NCBI GenBank assembly: GCA_964023275.1 | Contig: OZ029916.1 | Location: 11,214,607 to 11,278,606, forward strand | Reading direction: 5' to 3' | Length of the DNA: 64,000 nt | Source of the DNA: Norana najaformis | Lineage: Eukaryota > Annelida > Clitellata > Crassiclitellata > Hormogastridae | In this document: piece after piece, positions 9,754 through 63,010 of the stretch | Numbering within the stretch: the first letter of the stretch is position 1 | How the letters are laid out: each line of letters begins with the position of its first letter | Position numbers and translations under genes: made by a program | Notes under the pieces: generated by a model | What the model saw: only the letters and a program-made list of their open reading frames with translations | The model's database searches: none | Told to the model about the DNA's origin: nothing

Positions 9754-10392
9754 TCAGCAACAGTCTCCCTTTACACCAATGCCCTGCTTTGAAAGATCCA
9801 CAGTGTCAACATTCATGTTTCTGACCGTGTCACATTGTCTCTCCAGTTCTTGTGCTCTTTCCACAACAGCATGGAAAGCTGCATCAACATTGACAGCTGT
9901 TTTTGCACTTGTCTCATAGTATGGTATTTTATTTATGTGGCACCAAGCCCTTGCCTCTTCTGAGTCCACTTGGCGATTTGTAACGTCTGACTTGTTTCCG
10001 AGAATGACAAACGGAAATGTAGCAGCATCTTTAATATCTGCATAATAAAGAAACTCCTTCTGCCACAGTGACAGGTTACGGAAGCTGATTTTGTCATCAA
10101 GGCTGAACGTAAGTAGACAGCAGTCAGCACCACGATAAAAAGGTGTACGCAAACTTTTGAACCGCTCCTGACCAGCAGTATCCCAAATCTGCAGTGTGTA
10201 AGTTTCCTTGTCGATGGTAATGTCTTTCATTAGGAATTCCACACCAATTGTGTGGTAGGACTGTTCATCAAATTTACGATTCACAAAGACATTCATCAGT
10301 GAACTTTTACCAACTCCTCCATCACCAAGAAGAATGACCTTAAGTGTATGACCCTTTCCTGATTTGTTACGATGGTTAGTGTATGCCATCAT
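9754..10392 (-). CDS. RAB9: Rab9-like small GTPase, single coding exon
   Basis: This encodes a Rab-family GTPase of 212 residues, closest by memory to Rab9A/B, which directs late-endosome-to-Golgi traffic. Visible motifs are the P-loop GDGGVGKSS, switch I HTIGVEF, switch II WDTAGQERFKSLRTPFYRG, the guanine-specificity motif GNKSD, ETSAK, and a C-terminal GDCC whose two cysteines are the geranylgeranylation site. The Rab9 signatures ADCCLLTFS and LWQKEFLYYAD are present. Two adjacent ATGs (10392 and 10389) could start translation; the second gives MAYTNHRNK. Just upstream, at about 10432-10442 on the minus strand, is a strong acceptor (tttgcttgcag). The open frame simply runs into it, so the true start is one of the ATGs and a non-coding 5' exon lies further right. 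It appears intact. Confidence 0.95.
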   Translation of the reverse strand: MMAYTNHRNKSGKGHTLKVILLGDGGVGKSSLMNVFVNRKFDEQSYHTIGVEFLMKDITIDKETYTLQIWDTAGQERFKSLRTPFYRGADCCLLTFSLDDKISFRNLSLWQKEFLYYADIKDAATFPFVILGNKSDVTNRQVDSEEARAWCHINKIPYYETSAKTAVNVDAAFHAVVERAQELERQCDTVRNMNVDTVDLSKQGIGVKGDCC

Positions 10393-10440
10393 CAACACTA
10401 CAGCCAATGCTGACAGCGTTTCAAACTGGGCACTCTGCAA

Positions 10441-11079
10441 GCAAAGAAATTTTACATTTTAGTAGACATTATGTTATGCACTATTGCAGCCTATACATAA
10501 ATTCTGAACTATAATTAAATCTCCAATTCACAGGCCTCAGAGGTGTACCAAATAACTGTTTCATGTGTGTATTTGGCTAAAAAATTAGATTTTTAATATT
10601 TGTATTTGAGGAAATTTTCAGATATCTGAAAGTGAATAATTAGATAATATAATCTGTACTCATTTCTGCGTGACCACTTTTCTCCACTTCTGTACAGTCG
10701 ATGTGAGATGTGTTTACCTCTTGCAGTGTTCTGGTTGAAACTCTTGTTTGGTTTGTCATTAAACTTACTGTTCTGGTTTTGAGGGGCAGGCATTTCGACA
10801 AATAACGTGGAAAACATAAGCGTGGAATTATCTTAACATTCTTTACAACAACAATTACCCAGGACTGAACCATAATATTAGGAAGGATGAAATATCTGGT
10901 TTGGCCTCAAAATTTGAGACAAGTGTGGTTAATCCCAATAAACACAAAACGAAGTAATTCCACATATGAGTTTTTTCGGTTCCTGGACCGAAATTTTGTA
11001 ATTCTCTTCCCGCATCAGTGCATTATGCCCAATTTCTTATGTCATTTTGTTCTTGACTTAAGACTTATCTTTTTCTGTT
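10441..11079. other. Probable 5' intron or upstream region of Rab9
   Basis: No coding exon is supported. It lies immediately upstream of the coding exon of Rab9, past a clear splice acceptor, so part of it is probably a 5'-UTR intron. The first exon and promoter could not be located. Confidence 0.4.
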
Positions 11080-11226: not shown

Positions 11227-12944
11227 AATAACATACATCAGTTTTAAATACCTTGCTCCAGTAAAACAAGCCCAATGAGCTTATCAGAAAGTTAGCAAGG
11301 AAATTAGTATCCCATTGCTGCTTATGAAAGGCTAAGCCTAACTGAACCTCCTTTCTCACAGGAACTAGTAAAAGTAACAAAAGCAAACACCAAGCAAAGA
11401 CCCGCCCACAAGGCAAACCATTACTTAGCAACTCGCGTGAATTCGACAATTCGAAATGACTAATAAAGCATGAAAACAAGACACAGATTTTCACACAGTA
11501 GGCTTACTGAAAAATGTTTAAATGTCGTTTACAGCGAAGATTTAACGTCTTACTTTTTTGAAAACGCATTTAGATCATCTCACGGCGACGATCACGCCAC
11601 AAATAGCAAAAAGGCACGTGACGCTATTAGATGATGAAGCGCCATAATCTATGCCTATAATTATATAATAACAATATCAGTTGGAATATAATAATAACAC
11701 CAGCGGCTTGGGAGCGATGGGTTCAAATAAATGTAATTGTAATTTGAGATTTATAAAGCGCCTCTTAGAGGATAAACTCAACAGAGGTGCTTCCGACCCG
11801 AAGGAGTAAAATCACTGTTAAACAGTACAACGGAACACTGAGATAGGGAGAGAAAGGAGCTTAAGTCGCAATTCTCGAGGGAGACGAAATGACCTCCACT
11901 CTTCGGTCGTCTGTCATATTAAGTGCAGTTTTCGTGTTTAGTCTAACGGTTTCACTTGAAGGGACCATCGATCCTAATTTAATGATAACTGCAGAATATC
12001 CACCATCTACATACCCTCTTCTTCTTGATGACTGTGTTCTATCAGAACTTGTTGTTCTGGTGACCAGTCATAAATCAAGCAGCCAGCAAATGCTGAGGGG
12101 TTTGACGCCATCGGTTGATGGCTTGTGCATTAGACGCCGGCGCATTAGAAGTTTTCTAATTATTATTATATATGCCTACACTGAGGGCGCATGCATGCAA
12201 CTGCAATTTTTATATTTGATTTGATATTTTGATTTCGATATCTTAAATATTATTTCTATGTTCATCAGCTTCTTAATAATTCATGCACCGTCATTTACAG
12301 GGCTATATAGGCATCTGGGTATCCTGCAATATCGCTTCCCCGATGGTTTTCTAACGCTGTACAGTGAGGAGTAAAATGTATATGTACACGGATTTCTATA
12401 GCGACCGTATGGCCTCGACCCTGCTCATTTTTCGGGCGAGATCCTTCACCACCGCTGCCCTTTTGAGTGGGCGACCCTGCTTATTTTTCAATGTATTTAT
12501 CAGGTTAGATCCTTCCGGTCAGATTCGGTTCCACGTCATGATCCAAGATCCTCTAACAGCAACGTCATATAGGCCTATAGAGCATATGAAGCCTTTATGA
12601 TTATATTAATATTCCTGTATAGGCTGCATGTGACCTACATATGAATGATTAAGAGATGTGAGTCTGAGAGATGTGAGAGGTGAGAGACGAAACCCATATG
12701 GAAATACTGTAATTTGGCCTTGTAGCCTATACGTCCTGTATATGACCAATATTCTATCTGCGCGCGGACAGCATTTGAGGATTGCGCGCACAACCACTTT
12801 CTCTTATAGCACAAATTTCGTGAGCGTTCGTATTATTTCAAAGTTAAAGTTTTACAGCTGCTGGCATATTTAACCTACCCAGTACACCACGCCAAAACAA
12901 GGTTTCCATGCCCTATGTTGTGAAACCATATGGGCCTATGGTCT
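11227..12944. other. Repeat-rich intergenic region without a supported gene
   Basis: Between the dispersed repeats I find no gene. A segment at 11735-11800 (tttataaagcgcctcttaga, then ggataaactcaaca) recurs at about 21240-21285 and looks like another LINE or SINE 3' tail. ORFs at 11889-12224 and 12364-12600 have no recognisable domains and overlap repeats. Confidence 0.4.
12092..12170 (+). repeat. Dispersed repeat copy with (ATT)n tail, short
   Basis: This is a truncated copy of the family at 11080: gccatcggttgatggc, then gtgcattagacgcc, gaagttttctaattatta. Only the 3' half is present. Same strand as the 11080 and 46231 copies. Confidence 0.65.
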
Positions 12945-14590
12945 ATCATCATCATCATCAGTCACCATGGATTCAGCGCCCGTAGGTGCTTGATGCGCGC
13001 TTCACTATCTCCGTCCAAATGCCTCTATCCTGTGCCAGGTGGCTTAGTTGTTGTAAGGAATTATTACTGCACCAAGAGATGATGTCGTCTACCCATTCTC
13101 TGTTATTTGTTCTTCCCTCCCATTCTGCGAAACACTATCGTCTTGAGTATTCTGGAGTTATCCATTCTACATATGTGTCCAAATAATTGTAATTTTCTGC
13201 GGATTAGTTTTTGGAGTAAAGTTGTTCTTGAGCCAATTTGCTTGTATAGCTCCTCGTTCGTCATCTTTCTTCGCCAGCCGATTCTCAGTACTTTCCGATA
13301 ACATGTTCTTTCAAATGTCATTACTCTTCTTTCAATTTCTTTGGTTATTACCCACGTCTCACATGCATACAGGGCCCCACTGAACACGCAAGTATCTAGC
13401 ACCGCCAACTTGGTCTTCAACATTATCTCTTTGCTTTTCCAGATCTTGTTTAAGGTAGCGAGAGCCGCTTTGGCCTTGGCAAATCTTAGAGTTACTTCTC
13501 TCTTGCAGCTCAAATCGTGCGTGAATGTACTTCCCAGATATATGAACTCTGACATTTTCGATTCCTTCGCCATCTATTGTTATCTGCCGGTCGATTGTGT
13601 CGCTGCCAAATATCATCGTTTTTGTCTTTGCCGTGTTTACAACCAAGCCGTATGGCTTACTATCTAATACCAATCTCGTTAATGTTCTTTCTAGCCTCCT
13701 GCTGCTCCCTTCAATTACATCTATATCATCGGCAAATCTCAGATTGTTTATTGCTAGACCCTGAACTAAGATTCCTCCGCCGTTCTCTTTGACGCCATCC
13801 ATGGCTCTTTCTAAAACTGTAATAAACACTTCAGGTGATATCGGGTCCCCTTGTCTTGTTCCTTTATCAGTCCTGAACCAATCACCTCGCACATTCTGCA
13901 GTCGGACTGCTGCTACCCCGCACTCGTTTATGTTTTCCAGAACTCTTATCAGCTTTTCACACACCCCATACGACCTCAAAACTGCCCAAGTTACTTTTTG
14001 ATCTATGTTATCAAATGCCTTCTGGAAGTCCACAAAGCAGTTGTAGATTTTTTTCCCTTTTCTCCTTGCTTTTTCCGCTATCAGTCTCAAGGACAGGATC
14101 TGCTGGACTGTGCTCCTGTCCTTTCGAAATCCTGCCTGTTCGTCTGCCAGTTGTTCTTCCATCTGAGCCTGCAATCTTTTGGTTAGAATCATGATTAGAA
14201 TTTTTCCCACATGGCTGATCAGAGCTATGGTCCGATAATTCTTACAGTCCTGAGTACTTCCCTTCTTGTGTATAGTTATCAAAAGTGACTTCTTCCATAT
14301 TTCCGGCACTGCACCCGTTTGCCATGCTTTATTGCACATGTGATGTAGTAGTTTCAGTAGCCTTGGCCCCCCGTATTTGAGCATCTCGCCAGTGACCCCG
14401 TCTATCCCCGGGCTTTTGTTCTTCTTCAGGCGTTTTACCGCCCATTCCACTTCCTCCAGGAGAATGCCATCATCTGGCTCGTCTGTTTGCTGTGGTGGAG
14501 TAATCTCCTTCAGTGACTCAATTAGCTTTTTTGAAGCCGTTACATCCCGTTGCTCCTGATATAGACTGCTACAGTATCTTGTCCATCTCT
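12945..14590 (-). pseudogene. RTE-type LINE, 5'-truncated, one frameshift
   Basis: A minus-strand reverse transcriptase. From about 14585 it reads EEVEWAVKRLKKNKSPGIDG, then IHKKGSTQDCKNYRTIALIS, FVDFQKAFDNID (motif A), GTRQGDPISPEVF (motif B) and NNLRFADDIDVIEGSS (motif C, FADD intact). The frame shifts at about 13550-13575 and continues as FIYLGSTFTHDLSC, ACETWVITKEIERRV and ERTCYRKVLRIGW. In a third frame it finishes as WVDDIISWCSNNSL to ASSTYGR with TGA at about 12976. The 3' end carries a (GAT)n run at about 12945-12960. There is no endonuclease domain. The last 80 or so bases are homologous to the tail of the SINE at 47263-47545. Confidence 0.9.
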
Positions 14591-15177
14591 CAAGTATGGT
14601 CTATGGCATGCCAAGAGTATTGAGTCCACCCAAACAGTGACTTCATCTGGCTCACATAATACACTGGGCTACCGAGCTGGCCACTAGTTGCCATCTGCGC
14701 GCCCGATGTGTTCCTTATTAACGCGGCTTTCTGAACTCTGACCTCTAGCCCGAGCTCTGTGATGAATCCTTTGTGATACAGAGGTTTCAGGCTGACTACT
14801 CTCTCCACTAACAGTGTGCTGTATTAGTACTGCAAAGGAAATTGACTGAAACCAACTGCCCGTGTACAATTATTACTGCTCGAAGCGTTTAACAAATCCT
14901 CAGCATCTTCTTGCACTAGCTGTTCTAAAGGCCGTTCTCAAGAAGAAATTTGTGTGACGACAGTCAAAATATATTAGTTAGCAAAACTGTCAAGTTTGGC
15001 TCGCAGTATCTTGGAGAATGCATGTACCGGAGTGATGATATCAAGAGCTGTTAAACAAATAAGCTTATATGCAAAGACATTGACACAGCCACTGCAGCCC
15101 AGTTCATTGAGCCAGTCTGCTATCACTTGGACTTCGGATTTCCAGAAGACGAATAGCTAGAATTGAAGTTGACAAAT
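14591..15177. other. Intergenic, no supported gene
   Basis: Short ORFs overlap in several frames but show no domain. It separates the RTE copy from the nested LINE/hAT/Tc1 block. Confidence 0.4.
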
Positions 15178-15605: not shown

Positions 15606-17325
15606 CAGTGGTGTGCAAAAGTCTGGAACCACCTACGAATTTTGACATTTTTTCAACTTTATGACCTTTTACTGTAATTTTTTCATTACCTCACTATTTT
15701 TTTTTGTGTTTTTCGTTATAAGGGATATATTTGGCTATTATAATCATCTTTTTAATACCAATTATTTCTGTTTTTGACAGAAGTATAAGTTCTGAAACAT
15801 ACTTAGTACAACTTTTGTAAATTTCACAAATCCTGCGTGAAACTGGATCAAGATGTTCCAATCAGCGCGCGTTATTTCTGACCAATCAGGAGGCAGTTTT
15901 CACCAGCCAATAACAGTCCAGGGTGTCTAGGTAAGACAGCAGCTATAAAATAGGCGCGCTCTTTTGGATTTCTTACACTTTCTGCATCGACCATGACGAA
16001 GAAGCGGGGCTTGGTGTTGGAGGATCGTGTTCGTGTGACAGTGTTGAGGGAGGAAGGCTTTTCATGCCGCCAGATTGCCAGCAAAGTCGGCTGCAGTCAC
16101 AGCGCCGTTGTAAAAATCCTGCAGAAGAAGAACACGAGGGTTCGGTGGTAGACAAGCCTCGGTCCGGGCGTCCACGTGTATCAACATCACGCCAGGACCG
16201 TGCTCTTCGACGCTTGTCATTGACCAACCGCAAGTTGACTTCGCCTCAGCTACTGCGTGAGTGGTCAGACACGTCTCACGTCAGTGCAAGTTCATCAACT
16301 GTTCGTCGTCGGTGCCTGAAAGTATTTGGGCTGCGGGGCTGCAAGGCACGCAACAAGCCACTGATGAATGACGTACAGTACAAAGGAAGAAACGGATCGA
16401 GTGGGCGCGGAAACACTCAAGCTGGACAAGTGACAAGTGGGAGAAGGTGCTTTTCAGCGATGAAAGTACCTTCTGCTTGTTTGGCAATCAGACCCACACC
16501 TATGTGAGGAGATTTCCTGAAGAGGAGTTCAAGCCTGAGTGCCTCAATGTCACTGTAAAGCATCCTCTGAAGATCATGGTCTGGGGCTGCATGGCTGCCA
16601 GTGGCGTGGGACGCTTGCACATCGTCGATGGAATGGTGAACGGGGTGAAGTACATCACAATACTGCAAAAGTGCATGTTGCCATCAGCGGAGCAGCTCTT
16701 TCCAGGCCGGTTCCTGTTCCAAGATGACAACGCACCTTGCCACCGAGCCAAACTGGTGATGAACTGGAAGCGTCAGCACAAGATTGAGTCACTTGACTGG
16801 CCTGCGCAATCTCCAGACCTCAATCCCATCGAGAATCTGTGGCACAAGGTGGCATTGGAAATTTCAAAGAAGCGCCCAACTTCAAAGCGTGAGCTAATTG
16901 AATCGCTCATTACTGCCTGGAATCGCGTTGTCACGCATGATCACCTCGTCAAACTTGTGCACTCGATGCCGAAACGGTGCAGACAGGTGATCAAGAATAA
17001 AGGGTGGCCCACCAAATACTAATTCACCACGGTCACACAAAACGGCCTTTTTCAAGGCCACCTAAATGATTACGAAGGAATACAGACCACACGTGACCTG
17101 TTTTAAAGCATACATGTACGCACTAATTATTTTACACTATTGCCTAGGGATGTACGTACACGTGTACAAATTAGGAGATTTACACGCTAAGCGATTAACA
17201 TGGTAACTTCAACAAAAAAATTAGAAGATTAAGGCCAAACTAGGTCAAAAAGTTGATTATAATAGCCAAATATATCCCTTATAACAAAAAACACAAAAAG
17301 ATTTAGTGGGGTAATGAAAAAAATT
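15606..17325 (+). mobile_element. Tc1-like transposon with right tip missing
   Basis: The left end follows a TA at 15604-15605 and begins cagtggtgtgcaaaagtctg. The left inverted repeat is long: its inner part (ggatatatttggctattata at about 15723) is matched in inverse complement at 17254-17325. The match stops at 17325, so the outermost roughly 65-70 bases of the right repeat are lost and no right TA can be assigned. The transposase gene is inside. The element sits within the hAT element. Confidence 0.9.
15994..17022 (+). pseudogene. Tc1-family DD34E transposase, two frameshifts
   Basis: It opens at ATG 15994 (MTKKRGLVLEDRVRVTVL) with the helix-turn-helix segment FSCRQIASKVGCSHSAVV. It leaves frame around 16125-16140, continues in the next frame (VVDKPRSGRPRVS, the GRPR-type basic motif), then returns to the first frame around 16365-16380. 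The catalytic domain is complete: LFSDESTFC (first D), FQDDNAPCH (second D) and SPDLNPIENLW (E). Counting gives 34 residues between the second D and E, the Tc1-type DD34E spacing. It ends at GWPTKY, TAA 17022. The two compensating shifts make the copy non-functional, though it was clearly recent enough to retain all catalytic residues. Confidence 0.93.
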
Positions 17326-46674: not shown

Positions 46675-46969
46675 CAAAAAAATATTCAATTATACTGTCA
46701 GTCAGTGATATTTCAAGAGGTCAGTTCTTACACTATGTATGGTACAGAAGCAACAAAAAGTGAGGTTTATATAGTAAATGAAAGAGATCTGAAATTTTCT
46801 TGACACTTAATTATTTGAATCTGCAGTGTATTGTTCATCAGTATGTTGTGTGATTCTGGTGCCATCTGGTGAAACTTTAGCTACAAACAAAATTAAAGAG
46901 CTTTATTATAAATAGCAGTACTGAAATGGTTGCTAATGTGAAACACTGGCAACAAGCAGAATGCAATTT

Positions 46970-48905
46970 ATATGGGGCAAGGGCAGACTTTCCCAACAAT
47001 CACATGTCCCTTCCTCTTATATGGAGCAAGGGCAGACTTTCCCATCGATCATATATGGGGCAAGGGCAGACTTTCCAATCAATCACATGTCCCTTCCTCT
47101 TATATGGGGCAAGGGCAGACTTTCTCATCATCGATCATATATGGGGCAAGGGCAGACTTTCCAATCAATCACATGTCCCTTCCTCTTATATGGAGCAAGG
47201 GCAGACTTTCCCATCGATCATAGATGGGGCAAGGGCAGACTTTCCAATCATTCACATGTCCCGGTTCGGTGGCCGATTGGTAACACGCTGGCACGAAGAG
47301 CGGAAGGAAGCGGGATCGAATCCCGCTTGCCCCATAAAGGTCGACTCAGCCGCTACTCGCCAGAGGGCAGTAGTAAAATGAGTAGCAGTTTCACTGCGTA
47401 GATAACCTTGGGTTCAGCGGGTAAGACTTGCCATCTACCGCCGATGTATGGTCACTAGTGGCCACCTAAGGACTGATGGCATTTAAACCGGAGATCAGTA
47501 CCGGCACCTACGGGCGTTGAACCCATGGTGGAATCTATCTATCTAACATGTCCCATCCTCTTATATGGAGCAAGGGCAGACTTTCCCAACAATCACATGT
47601 CCCTTCCTCTTATATGGGGCAAAGGCAGACTTTCCCATCAATCATACGTCTCTCCCTCTTATTTGGGGAAAGGGCAGACTTTCTCATCGATCATATATGG
47701 GACAAGGGTAGACTTTCCAATCAATCACATGTCCCTTCCTCTTAAATGGAGCAAGGGCAGACTTTCCCATCGATCATATATGGGGCAAGGGCAGACTTTC
47801 CAATCATTCACATGTCCCATCCTCTTATATGGAGCAAGGGCAGACTTTCTCAACAATCACATGTCCCTTCCTCTTATATGGAGCAAGGGCAGACTTTCTC
47901 AACAATCACATGGGCCTTTCCTCTTATATGGGGCAAGGGCAGACTTTCTCATCAATCACATGTCCCTTCCTCTTATATGGGCAAGGGCAGACTTTCTCAT
48001 CAATCACATGTCCCTTCCTCTTATATGGAGGCAAGGGCAGACTTTCCAATCAATCACATGTCCCTTCCTCTTATATGGAGCAAGGGCAGACTTTCTCAAC
48101 AATCACATGTCCCTTCCTCTTATATGGAGCAAGGGCAGACTTTCCCATCTATCATATGCCCCTCCCTCTTAAATGGGACAAGGGCAAACGTTCCCATCGA
48201 TTATATATGGGGCAAGGCAGACTCTCCAATCAATCACATGTGCCTTCCTCTTATATGGGGCAAGGGCAGACTTTCCCATCGATCATATATGAGGCAAGGG
48301 CAGACTTTCCAATCATTCATATGTCCCTTCCTCTTATATGGGGCAAGGACAGACTTTCCCATCGATCATATATGGGGCAAGGGCAGACTCTCCAATCAAT
48401 CACATGTGCCTTCCTCTTATATTGGGCAAGGGCAGACTTTTCCATCAATCACATGTCCCTTCCTCTTATATGGGGCAAGGGCAGACTTTCCCATCGATCA
48501 TATATGATGGGGCAAGGGCAGACTCTCCAATCAATCACATGTCCCTTCCTCTTATATGGGGCAAGGGCAGACTTTCCCATCGATCATATATGAGGCAAGG
48601 GCAGACTTTCCAATCATTCACATGTCCCTTCCTCTTATATGGGGCAAAGGCAGACTTTCCCATCAATCATACGTCTCTCCCTCTTATATGGAGCAAGGGC
48701 AGACTTTCCCATCGATCACATGTCCCTCCCTCTTATATGAGGTAAGGGCAGACTTTCCCATCGATCATACATGGGGCAATGGCAGACTTTCCAATCAATC
48801 ACATGTCCCTTCCTCTTATATGGGGCAAGGGCAGACTTTCCAATCAATCACATGTCCCTTCCTCTTATATGGGGCAAGGGCAGACTTTCCCATCGATCAC
48901 GTGTC
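46970..48905 (+). repeat. Composite minisatellite, about 37 units of 32-50 bp, split by a SINE
   Basis: About 37 copies share gcaagggcagactttcc. Two unit types alternate irregularly: a short one (about 34 bp, ending catcgatcatatatgg) and a long one (about 49 bp, ending cacatgtcccttcctctta). A short plus a long unit make about 83 bp, not a multiple of three, so the frame rotates. Because few units contain stops, all three plus-strand frames stay open for long stretches (over 200 codons each, for example 47746-48507 and 47829-48593). I regard these as by-products of the repeat, not genes. The SINE at 47263-47545 interrupts the array. Confidence 0.95.
47263..47545 (+). mobile_element. tRNA-derived SINE, 9-bp target duplication
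   Basis: This is 283 bp. The 5' part is tRNA-like: A box tggccgattgg (about 47270), B box gatcgaatc (47314-47322) within the T-arm-like hairpin agcggg-atcgaat-cccgct. The 3' part (ccacctaaggactgatggca, ttaaaccggagatc, gcacctacgggcgttgaacc, catggtg) aligns with the end of the RTE-type LINE at 12945-13040, followed by an (ATCT)n tail. It is flanked by acatgtccc on both sides (47254-47262, 47546-47554), a piece of the minisatellite unit, so it inserted into an existing array. The middle (about 47345-47450) is SINE body of unknown origin. Confidence 0.9.
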
Positions 48906-49261
48906 TCTCCCATCCCCATTCAATATTCTCAGAAACTTCAGAATGCGTCCTGACAACAAAGGCAGTAAGAACACAGTTCAACAGGAGAACTAGTAACATC
49001 AAAACAATAACAGCATAAGGTTTTCCACTCAAAAAGACACTATATTACTGAATACATTAATAAATATGTATAATGTCACATGTGATGGGAGGAGGCAGAA
49101 GGAGATGGAAAGCAAATGAGTTTGCAACAGGGAGGAAGAGGTAGAGGGAGAGGAAGGAGGCAGACAGAACGGGTCTGACAAACATCAACAGATATTGAGA
49201 CGGAGAGATACATAAAGAGGATGCAGTTTCATCAAGACTGTCACAATTAAACTCCTTAGAC
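48906..49261. other. 3' flank of the unidentified minus-strand gene
   Basis: Between the minisatellite and the stop codon at 49262. It probably contains the 3' UTR of that gene. No other feature. Confidence 0.4.
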
Positions 49262-59639: not shown

Positions 59640-62600
59640 CCCCCCCAAAGACCGACCTGCACCTCACCGCGGTGGGGGGGTGAACAGCCAAGTAGGGGAT
59701 AGCCTGGTGAGGCTATCCATCAGAGGAGAAGGCCATTGGCCGAAGAACCTCCTAGGGCGTTACGCGAGGTGGACAGGCTCACCAGGAACCCCGAAGAGTG
59801 CTGGCTAACGCAGGCGGCAGGTGTTGGAAGGACACCTTTGGGCGAAAGAGGCCAAAAAGGCCCACCGGCTTCCTTACCCTACCGAGAGAGAACTGGTCAT
59901 CACTCGGCAAAGAGACCAAGAAACCTTATGAAAATGAAACCAAACAGAAAAGTGGGCAACGACGTCAACGGGGCCTCCGTTCAAATGAAGGGAGGATCTG
60001 CGTCCGGCAGGGGTGGAGAACACAGGGCCACCCAGGTCGTAAACCTGAGAAAACCCTGTACTAGGCGCGAGGAGCACCTGTTTAACGGAAAAGAGGAGGT
60101 ATGCATTGGAACCTGGAACGTCAGGACTCTGTACGCAGCGGGACAGCTAGATGTGTTTCTACACCAACTAAAAAGAATCAGGTGGAGTGTGATGGGACTA
60201 GCGGAGGTAAGATGGCCGGGAGAAGGAGAAATCAACAAAGAAGGATATAAGATAATATACTCAGGAAGGAAGGACGGAGGACACCAACAGGGAGTGGCGC
60301 TGGTCCTGGGAAAAGAGGCATCAAAAGCCCTCATTGGGTACAGAACGATCGGACCAAGAATAATGAAGGCAAGATTTCGTACAACATACGGCAAGACCAC
60401 AATAGTGCAAGTGTATGCACCAACAAGCAGTGCGACAGACCAAGAGATAAACGAATTTTATGAGACGTTACAACAGACGATGCAGGGAATATCGAGTCAA
60501 GACGTGATTATCGTAATGGGAGACTTCAATGCCAAGGTGGGGAAGGACTGGAAAACATGGAAGGGAGCACTGGGGAAACACGGGTACGGAGAAGAAAACG
60601 AGAGAGGAGAGAGATTGTTGAACTTTTGCCTAAACAATGACCTACGAATAATGAACACAGCGTTCTTTCAGAAGAAGGATAGCAGAAAATGGACCTGGGA
60701 GTCACCAGATCACAAGACAAAAAACATGATAGATTTCATCATGGTAAACAACAGATGGAAAAGTGCAGTGACAAAATGTCGCACATTTGCAGGACCAGAC
60801 ATTGCATCCGATCATAGACTAGTACTAGCAGGAATCAGAATAAAACTAAGAAAAATGGACAGAAGAGGAACAAACAGAAGATACGACATGGAGAAACTGA
60901 GGGATGATGTAACCAGAAACCAATTCAGATCACAACTGGAGAACAGATGGAGACAGAGCAAGGGAAGAGGCATGAACACAGTGGAAGAGACGTGGACAGA
61001 AATAAAGAGCATATATACCGAGACGGCACAGCAAGTATTGGGACATGAAAAAAGGAAGAAGAAAAAACCATGGATCACCAGAGCAGTACTGGATTTGAGC
61101 GACAAAAGAAGAGACATGAGAAAGACAAAAACACACAGCGAGACGAACATGGAAAGATATAAAGAAATTACGAAAGAAATAAGAAAAAAGGCGAAAAGAT
61201 GTAAAGAAGAATGGATCATCGAGAAATGTCAAGAACTGGAGAGCACACCAGGAGCATTAAACACGGGGAAGCTATTTCAAGTAGCAAGAGAAATATGTGG
61301 ATCACCCAACGTAAAACTAGCCACAGTAAAGAACAAGGAAGGAAAAATACTGGAAGACAAAGCAGAGATCAAGCAACGATGGAAACAACAATACGAAGAG
61401 TTATACAACAGTGAGAACCCAGTGGACAGAACAGTGCTTGAAGAGCTACCAGAAACCAACGGCCAAGAACAAATGCTGGACATACTGAAAGCGGAGGTAG
61501 AAACAACAGTCAATAGGCTAAAAAAGAAAAAAGCACCAGGCGAGGACAACATCACAGCAGAAATGATCCAGGCAGGAGGGAGTTGCTCGGTAGAAATGCT
61601 ACATAAACTGTGCAATAAAATTTACTACGACAAGGAATGCCCCAAGGATTGGTGCAAAGCCATAATAGTACCAATATACAAAAAAGGAGACAAGACAGAA
61701 TGCAGCAACTACAGAGCAATCAGCCTTTTGAGCATACCAGGAAAGGTTTATACTGGAGTATTACAGAGAAGATTGAGAAGGTATGCAGAAGAAGCGATGA
61801 GCGAGGAACAAGCAGGATTCAGGAAAGAACGAGGAACAATGGACCAGATATTTGTAATCAGGCAACTGTCAGAAAAGTACGTCGAAATGAATAGAACACT
61901 ATATAACAACTTTATTGACTACAAACAGGCGTTTGACAGCGTGTGGCAAGAAGGTTTATGGAAAGTACTGAGACACTGTGGAGTACCAGAGGAGTTAGTG
62001 ATGTTAATAGAAGATATATACAGCAAATCGAAAAGCGCAGTAAGAGTAGAGGGAGAGCTAACGGAATGGTTTACGATAAAAGTAGGGGTAAGACAAGGAT
62101 GTGGAATGTCATCGGATCTGTTCAATATGTTGCTAGAAATAGTGATGAGACTTGCCAAAGGAGAAGAAGAACACGGGATAAACCTAAATGGGCGACCACT
62201 GAGTAACCTCCGCTTCGCAGATGACATAGACCTGATAGCTGACACACAAGGGAAGCTACAGGACATAACAAACAGGGTGGATGGCAGCAGCAAGAGAATG
62301 GGTCTCAAAATCAACGTGGAAAAAACAAAAACAATGGTAATTGGAAAACATCATGAGGATTTACAGATAAGAATAGAAAAAGGAATATTAGAGCAGGTTA
62401 CCAGATTCGTCTATCTTGGAGGACTAATAACAGAAGATGGAAAATGTGAAGAGGACATCAAACGAAGAATTGGATTGGCGTGTACAGCATTCGGAAAACT
62501 GGGAAAAATGTGGAAGGCAAGAAACATCTCCATCAGAACAAAGATGAAACTCTATCATACCTTAGTAGAACCGATATTACTATACGGATCAGAGTGCTGG

Positions 62601-63010
62601 TGCTTGAGAAAAGAAGACGAACGGAGACTATTGGTGGCAGAGATGGGCTGGCTAAGAAGAATAATAGGCAGAAGCAGAAGAGAAAAGATCAGAAATGAAA
62701 AAACACGAGAAGAACTGGGAGTTGATGAAACAATAGTAGAAACAATCACAAAGAGAAGACTCAGATGGTTTGGGCATGTGATCAGAATGACGCAACAAAG
62801 ACTACCAAACGCTGCATTGCACGGACACATAGAAGGAAAGAGAAGCAGAGGAAGACAACGAAAGACCTGGATAGATAATGTCAAAGAAGATCTGAGAGAA
62901 AGAGGCACAAGCTTGATTGGAGTTAGAGAAACAATCAGGAACAGAGAAGTTTGGAGAAGTTTCATAAAGGCCTCATCGCCATAAATGGCGGAAGAGAAGA
63001 CAGAAGAAGA
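59640..63010 (+). mobile_element. Full-length RTE-type LINE, 12-bp target duplication
   Basis: The element is 3371 bp, flanked by the exact direct repeat ataccgaccggt (59628-59639 and 63011-63022). The 5' UTR is GC-rich (about 59640-59927), unlike the AT-rich surroundings. One long ORF follows, then a very short 3' UTR ending in an AGA-rich run (agaagacagaagaaga). An intact ORF, complete ends and identical duplications imply a recent insertion. Confidence 0.9.
59928..62984 (+). CDS. RTE-type endonuclease-reverse transcriptase, intact
   Basis: From ATG 59928 the ORF is 1018 residues; the open frame extends upstream to a TTG at 59736 (1082), but the first ATG is preferred. This single protein nicks target DNA and reverse-transcribes the LINE RNA. 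The N-terminal APE-type endonuclease shows IGTWNVRTLYAAGQLD, GLAEVRWPGEG, IVQVYAPTSS, VIIVMGDFNAKVGKD, KNMIDFIMVNNRW and GPDIASDHRLV, all expected catalytic motifs. The reverse transcriptase shows PIYKKGDKTECSNYRAISLL, EEQAGFRKERGTMDQIFV, NFIDYKQAFDSVW (motif A), VGVRQGCGMSSDLFN (motif B) and NLRFADDIDLIAD (motif C, catalytic DD), then KTKTMVIG and FVYLGGLITEDGKC. The C-terminal tail, LLYGSECWCLRKEDERRL to RLRWFGHVIRM, is RTE-like and has no RNase H. Codon use is strongly AGA/ACA-biased. No frameshift or stop. Confidence 0.93.
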   Translation: MKMKPNRKVGNDVNGASVQMKGGSASGRGGEHRATQVVNLRKPCTRREEHLFNGKEEVCIGTWNVRTLYAAGQLDVFLHQLKRIRWSVMGLAEVRWPGEGEINKEGYKIIYSGRKDGGHQQGVALVLGKEASKALIGYRTIGPRIMKARFRTTYGKTTIVQVYAPTSSATDQEINEFYETLQQTMQGISSQDVIIVMGDFNAKVGKDWKTWKGALGKHGYGEENERGERLLNFCLNNDLRIMNTAFFQKKDSRKWTWESPDHKTKNMIDFIMVNNRWKSAVTKCRTFAGPDIASDHRLVLAGIRIKLRKMDRRGTNRRYDMEKLRDDVTRNQFRSQLENRWRQSKGRGMNTVEETWTEIKSIYTETAQQVLGHEKRKKKKPWITRAVLDLSDKRRDMRKTKTHSETNMERYKEITKEIRKKAKRCKEEWIIEKCQELESTPGALNTGKLFQVAREICGSPNVKLATVKNKEGKILEDKAEIKQRWKQQYEELYNSENPVDRTVLEELPETNGQEQMLDILKAEVETTVNRLKKKKAPGEDNITAEMIQAGGSCSVEMLHKLCNKIYYDKECPKDWCKAIIVPIYKKGDKTECSNYRAISLLSIPGKVYTGVLQRRLRRYAEEAMSEEQAGFRKERGTMDQIFVIRQLSEKYVEMNRTLYNNFIDYKQAFDSVWQEGLWKVLRHCGVPEELVMLIEDIYSKSKSAVRVEGELTEWFTIKVGVRQGCGMSSDLFNMLLEIVMRLAKGEEEHGINLNGRPLSNLRFADDIDLIADTQGKLQDITNRVDGSSKRMGLKINVEKTKTMVIGKHHEDLQIRIEKGILEQVTRFVYLGGLITEDGKCEEDIKRRIGLACTAFGKLGKMWKARNISIRTKMKLYHTLVEPILLYGSECWCLRKEDERRLLVAEMGWLRRIIGRSRREKIRNEKTREELGVDETIVETITKRRLRWFGHVIRMTQQRLPNAALHGHIEGKRSRGRQRKTWIDNVKEDLRERGTSLIGVRETIRNREVWRSFIKASSP

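Follow-up and report, generated by a model that had tools for sequence, protein, structure and literature searches.

The locus described here raises the question of whether a SINE can be linked, through its 3′ tail, to the LINE whose enzyme copies it. The original prediction, made for a 64,000-nucleotide stretch of the annelid Norana najaformis (hereafter the window), placed a SINE at 47263..47545 and proposed that its 3′ end matches that of an RTE-type LINE in the same window. The position of the SINE was borne out. The element spans 47263-47545 (283 bp) between 9-bp direct repeats ACATGTCCC, and its joined flank (a 16-mer) is present without the insertion in the adjacent tandem unit, at 47807. 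A tandem array of 34-, 49- and 83-bp units (TATATGGGGCAAGGGCAGACTTTCC...), extending over 46969-48911, houses the insertion.

The feature is a tRNA-derived SINE: it is short, non-coding (with stop codons in all six frames) and flanked by target-site duplications, and it has a tRNA-like head with A- and B-box-like stretches (Table 1). The head was read by eye against the consensus of the A and B boxes. ARAGORN did not report an intact tRNA anywhere in the window, and one antisense frame of the SINE, used as a protein query, gave no match. For comparisons with the rest of the genome, we sampled 261 kb from contigs 1-4 (49-64 Mb each, >216 Mb together). The SINE body of ~120 nt has no match in this sample or elsewhere in the window (blastn, E 1e-2). 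A second copy of the SINE was likewise absent from both the window and the 261 kb at this threshold, and the number of copies known from these sequences is one.

The LINE had been placed at 12945-14590, and a LINE is indeed found there; the limits of the copy are 12947-14594, as set by the 10-bp direct repeats TATGGTCTAT, read by eye, that occupy 12937-12946 and 14595-14604, giving a span of 1,648 bp. Two database relatives, P0121 and P0001, align to the copy at 71-82% identity in two main segments (76% and 82% for P0121) and at 54% and 64%, respectively, in the last LINE segment (tblastn). Both EN and RT domains are annotated in P0121 (962 aa). The frame of the LINE reads ..LSHLAQDRGIWTEIVKRASSTYGR and terminates in ...RASSTYGR, and both relatives likewise terminate in STYGR. 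Judged by its anatomy, on which the name rests, the copy is provisionally assigned to the RTE clade; a trait of this clade, a very short 3′ UTR made of simple repeats, is present here as 26 nt with (GAT)n. Scans of IMG/VR returned no relative, and a GTDB scan returned seven loci, all of them distant RTs with 25-32% identity. The window as a whole looks eukaryotic, with retroelements, long non-coding stretches and a G+C content of 39.5%. It includes a second LINE at 59703-62984 (+), with an open frame of 1093 aa that contains endonuclease and reverse-transcriptase domains and shares ~37% identity with P0121. Downstream of the frame of this second LINE, no core of the TYGR type was found.

Table 1. 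Features of the SINE insertion and of the LINE copy, in window coordinates.
Feature	Position	Strand	Basis or remark
Left target-site duplication ACATGTCCC of SINE	47254..47262	.	Identical 9-mer on both sides
SINE head, tRNA-like	47263..47336	+	Sequence reading by eye
A-box-like stretch TGGCCGATTGG	47270-47280	+	By eye; imperfect A box
T-arm-like stem-loop	47310-47326	+	5-bp perfect stem, 7-nt loop; by eye
B-box-like stretch GGATCGAATCC	47313-47323	+	By eye; within the T-arm-like stem-loop
SINE body, origin without match	47337..47460	+	blastn, E 1e-2, window and 261 kb
Putatively LINE-derived tail, gapped part	47461..47503	+	Matches LINE codons ..SHLAQDRGIWTEIV..
Putatively LINE-derived 27-nt core GCACCTACGGGCGTTGAACCCATGGTG	47504..47530	+	25/27 identical to the LINE
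SINE 3′ terminus, (ATCT)n microsatellite	47531..47545	+	Sequence reading
Right target-site duplication ACATGTCCC of SINE	47546..47554	.	Identical 9-mer on both sides
RTE-type LINE copy, 5′-truncated, frameshifted, reverse transcriptase only, ends in (GAT)n	12947..14594	-	Pfam RVT_1, E 2.5e-28
LINE 3′ UTR, 26 nt including (GAT)n	12947..12972	-	Bounded by the stop codon and the direct repeat
Core shared with the SINE, 27 nt, holds the ORF end (T Y G R)	12963..12989	-	TGA stop at 12975-12973

SINE and LINE share a 27-nt core near their 3′ ends, where SINE 47504-47530 and LINE 12989-12963 (minus strand) are identical at 25 positions in an ungapped alignment. The core scores 44 locally, a value that none of 300 mononucleotide shuffles approached more closely than 28, and a BLAST search against the window gives it an E-value of 8e-6. 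A gapped extension covers 84 columns (SINE 47461-47530, LINE 13043-12963) and scores 29, compared with a best of 20 in 300 shuffles. The 43-column block 5′ of the core has a local score of 16 that was reached by none of 2000 dinucleotide shuffles, while its end-free global score was reached by three of 2000. By these scores, the block upstream is significant on its own, apart from the core, and the alignment identifies the SINE and LINE 3′ ends as homologous over all 84 columns. The match of about 90 bp that had been claimed for the tail therefore stands as homology of the 3′ ends, but not at that length: 70 of the last 85 SINE bases can be aligned, to 81 LINE bases, with several indels that all fall outside the core.

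The common stretch takes in the LINE stop codon, the ~22 codons before it and a part of the UTR, and the SINE has retained the TYGR* reading. This agrees with the original prediction that the last codons of the LINE, ending in STYGR, form part of the shared tail. Their presence had been regarded as unusual; it is instead to be expected, because only 26 nt follow the LINE stop codon and any longer shared tail must carry codons. Extremely short 3′ UTRs are described for RTE LINEs (PMC2887409). The core is located just inside the 3′ boundary of both insertions and in the correct orientation. Insertion of a third, unrelated repeat into both elements, which the original prediction had itself considered, is barely credible as the source of the shared block, and so is chance similarity. 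Apart from the shortness of the block, nothing was found in favour of either. The block is the end of the LINE ORF, is conserved in relatives of the LINE and sits just inside both 3′ boundaries, and the reading frame also speaks against a separate repeat, which we thus ruled out. Chance similarity is very unlikely given the shuffle scores and the BLAST E-value, and was rejected on these grounds.

In the 261 kb, blastn identified three more RTE-type tails, L020, L025 and L029, in all of which the core recurs with substitutions. Core identity to the SINE is 25/27 for the LINE at 12947-14594 (hereafter the 13-kb LINE), 22/27 for L029 and 19/27 for both L020 and L025. The local scores against the SINE are 29 for the 13-kb LINE and 14, 15 and 22 for L020, L025 and L029, respectively. 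On this sequence evidence the 13-kb LINE is clearly the closest to the SINE of the four LINE-type tails, upstream of the core as well. Aligned without gaps, all five tails have CACCTACGGGC, six bases and then (C/T)CCA(T/C)GG. A scan of the window and the first 201 kb for CACCTACGGGC-N6-CCCATGG, a pattern drawn up post hoc when the tails were already known, gave four matches (the SINE, the 13-kb LINE, L020 and L025) at up to one, two or three substitutions, against none in 20 mononucleotide shuffles. A looser pattern, with up to four substitutions and a spacer of 4-8, gave four matches compared with 13 in five shuffles, which is the level of chance.

The terminal microsatellites differ as predicted, with (ATCT)n on the SINE and (GAT)n on the 13-kb LINE, and that of the SINE is unlike those of all four LINE-type tails. 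This mismatch would fit a real SINE family whose working partner is another RTE subfamily, such as the L029 subfamily or one with (ATCT)n at its end, the 13-kb LINE being only a cousin. The core is also common to several RTE-type tails, with L029 the second best. We nevertheless consider such a partner rather improbable, as the best match among the four tails is clearly that of the 13-kb LINE, 5′ of the core included. Moreover, a microsatellite mismatch is found in an accepted pair, Sauria SINE and Bov-B (PMC13295347), and SINEX-1_CR with (ATT)n and SINEX-2_CR with (CTTT)n share the tail of RandI-2 (PMC3747384).

One of the sampled tails belongs to a composite of ~330 bp, at L020:4503-4830 (-). 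The 5′ part of this composite matches the 5′ region of the second LINE, at 59.7 kb, with 84% similarity, an RTE tail with (GAT)n makes up the 3′ part, and the flanks are apparently GCATACCTCGGG (by eye). The composite looks like a non-autonomous RTE derivative, in which it resembles Bov-A2 and MAR4, both listed as such in PMC3747384.

The existence of an RTE-tailed composite in this genome, together with the single copy of the SINE in the window and the sample, would also suit a one-off chimera, in which a tRNA-like RNA was joined to a LINE RNA tail by template switching during a single reverse-transcription event and was inserted once. The ~120-nt body argues against this, as it matches neither the LINE nor anything else that was searched. 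The several indels of the tail relative to the LINE, with none in the core, suit an established lineage better, and 261 kb is a small sample next to contigs 1-4 alone. We therefore regard a one-off chimera as distinctly unlikely.

The reading that we prefer, and that we hold to be likely, is that the SINE was inserted by target-primed reverse transcription and took its 3′ part from an RTE-type LINE of the 12947-14594 subfamily. As far as sequence can tell, it very probably borrows the copying enzyme of this LINE lineage. Borrowing, as originally proposed, is the best explanation for the shared 3′ end, the strand relation, the duplications and the identity of the closest tail; the proposal of a whole SINE family fares less well, with one copy known. 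In the mechanism that we envisage, SINE RNA would be made by Pol III and bound by the EN-RT protein of the LINE via the 27-nt core common to both elements, which may fold into a GGG-N7-CCC hairpin. Copying of this RNA would start from nicked target DNA as primer, and slippage on differing end repeats could account for the (ATCT)n of the SINE and the (GAT)n of the LINE. With a LINE 3′ UTR of only 26 nt, the recognition element would overlap the last LINE codons, and ORF sequence would be carried along with it. The established model of stringent recognition, in which the LINE protein binds a 3′ tail that is shared by the SINE (PMC4176376), is supported here by the homology of the tails, by the direct repeats around both elements and by where the core lies; from this model we infer binding and mobilisation.

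Folding of the tails gave a mixed picture of the possible hairpin. In both whole tails, CACC-UAC-GGG-N7-CCC-AU-GGUG is part of the minimum-energy fold, with pair probabilities (RNA letters) of 0.37-0.49 in the SINE and 0.34-0.77 in the LINE. The GGG/CCC pairing is kept in all five tails, in one of them as G-U. Compared with shuffles, the two cores (z -0.50 and 0.01) and the SINE tail (z +0.47) show no gain in stability, and the isolated LINE core favours a different fold. The outer stem is broken in two or three of the five tails, and a compensatory change in the core was found neither among the five tails nor among four. Sliding the 3′ side left at most 60% of the cells paired, down from 85.7%, for a structure derived from the same sequences. 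A two-sequence fold contained four pairs with both bases changed; none lies in the core, their columns are poorly aligned, and we gave them no weight. A conserved hairpin is weakened by its stability relative to shuffles, the broken outer stem and a core without covariation, and we make no claim of structure.

We also looked at the C-termini of LINE-related proteins, using the best 120 of 823 such proteins and two that were added. By search pattern, a T[YN]G-type terminus is present in 40 of these 122 relatives; 14 have the upstream GRP..W motif without such a terminus, and the remaining 68 were left unclassified. A search with the C-terminus of P0001 found four proteins, P0001 included. One residue follows the T[YN]G motif in 17 of the 40 (R in 12), where the ends may be stops or contig ends. 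The other 23 have longer ends, five of them identical, and 18 of the 23 are compatible with CCATGG, in two frames (12 and 6), as judged from the protein and not the DNA. When distinct ends were counted once, 12 of 17 were compatible, versus 1.0 on average and never more than 5 in 2000 shuffles that ignore the kinship among these proteins. The fit of CCATGG in two frames hints that the motif may be kept at the nucleotide level.

A broader reading, which we put forward tentatively and with more doubt than belief, is that the 3′ recognition signal for reverse transcription in this RTE lineage is the end of the coding sequence itself. The signal would have the form CACCUACGGGC-N6-(C/U)CCAUGG, in some subfamilies with the stop codon between its halves, and would be kept for its role in the RNA across subfamilies and frames; the SINE would survive by copying this dual-use stretch. 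The motif fits four of the five tails, with one change in L029 (CCACGG), and its spacer contains a stop codon in two of the four LINE-type tails. No compensatory base changes supporting an RNA role were found in the core of the five tails.

The pair fits among known SINE/LINE systems. Nearly the same arrangement is that of HaSE1 and HaRTE1.1 in Helicoverpa armigera, where the 3′ 43 bp of a tRNA-derived SINE are 82% identical to an RTE LINE (PMC3272025). A HaRTE1.1 copy of 1,645 bp has target-site duplications and a short 3′ UTR of TGA repeats, and closely resembles the 1,648-bp LINE copy here. HaSE1 has TGA repeats like its partner and many copies, whereas the SINE here ends in (ATCT)n and is known from one (PMC3272025). 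Sauria SINE and Bov-B resemble the present pair in sharing an RTE-clade 3′ end with differing microsatellites, (ACCTTT)n and (CAA)n, a mismatch from which Bov-B of Anolis carolinensis is exempt (PMC13295347). This likeness is one of description only, and the Sauria pair differs in being reptilian, with many copies and a described insertion signature. Tobacco TS and RTE-1_Stu, also a tRNA-derived SINE and an RTE LINE, have ~100 bases of 3′ end in common; unlike the pair here, they are from plants, with nearly identical tails that both end in TTG repeats (PMC3747384). UnaL2 and ZfL2 are the model for a LINE protein that recognises a 3′ tail shared with a SINE, but they are L2-type and their tail stem-loop was tested experimentally, whereas the hairpin here is predicted (PMC4176376). 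Butterfly Metulj SINEs are suspected users of an RTE LINE (PMC6685494).

A survey counts 58 SINEs for which a partner LINE is known; CR1 and RTE elements are the prevailing partners, and one SINE is listed under the protostome heading (PMC3747384). In the open-access literature searched, we found no description of this SINE/LINE pair. The pair is a good new case of a familiar arrangement, and is useful as an addition from outside the usual model organisms, since such partnerships reveal which LINE enzyme mobilises which parasite. If the core is the recognition signal, the RTE target would be small and would overlap a stop codon.

The window contains two further features. The first is a Tc1/mariner-like DNA transposon at 15678-17322, with 76-nt inverted repeats (92%), a DDE_3 domain in the ORF at 16372-17022 and an upstream part in a different frame. 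A stem-loop of the kind that ends histone mRNAs at their 3′ side (Rfam RF00032, 35 bits with a gathering score of 34, E 2e-6) is located at 17039-17085 (+); it starts 16 nt past the transposase stop and is followed by a purine-rich stretch. The end of the transposase mRNA might resemble that of a replication-dependent histone mRNA. A literature search by title or abstract start found no description of a transposon with a histone-type stem-loop. In the genome sample, L032:7102-7154 is 78% identical over 55 bases to one end of the transposon, and this family or a relative may have further copies in the genome. The second feature, at 9754-10458 (-), encodes a Rab/Ras-type GTPase (Pfam Ras, E 1.3e-53) in one uninterrupted frame of 234 aa and is possibly intronless or a retrocopy.
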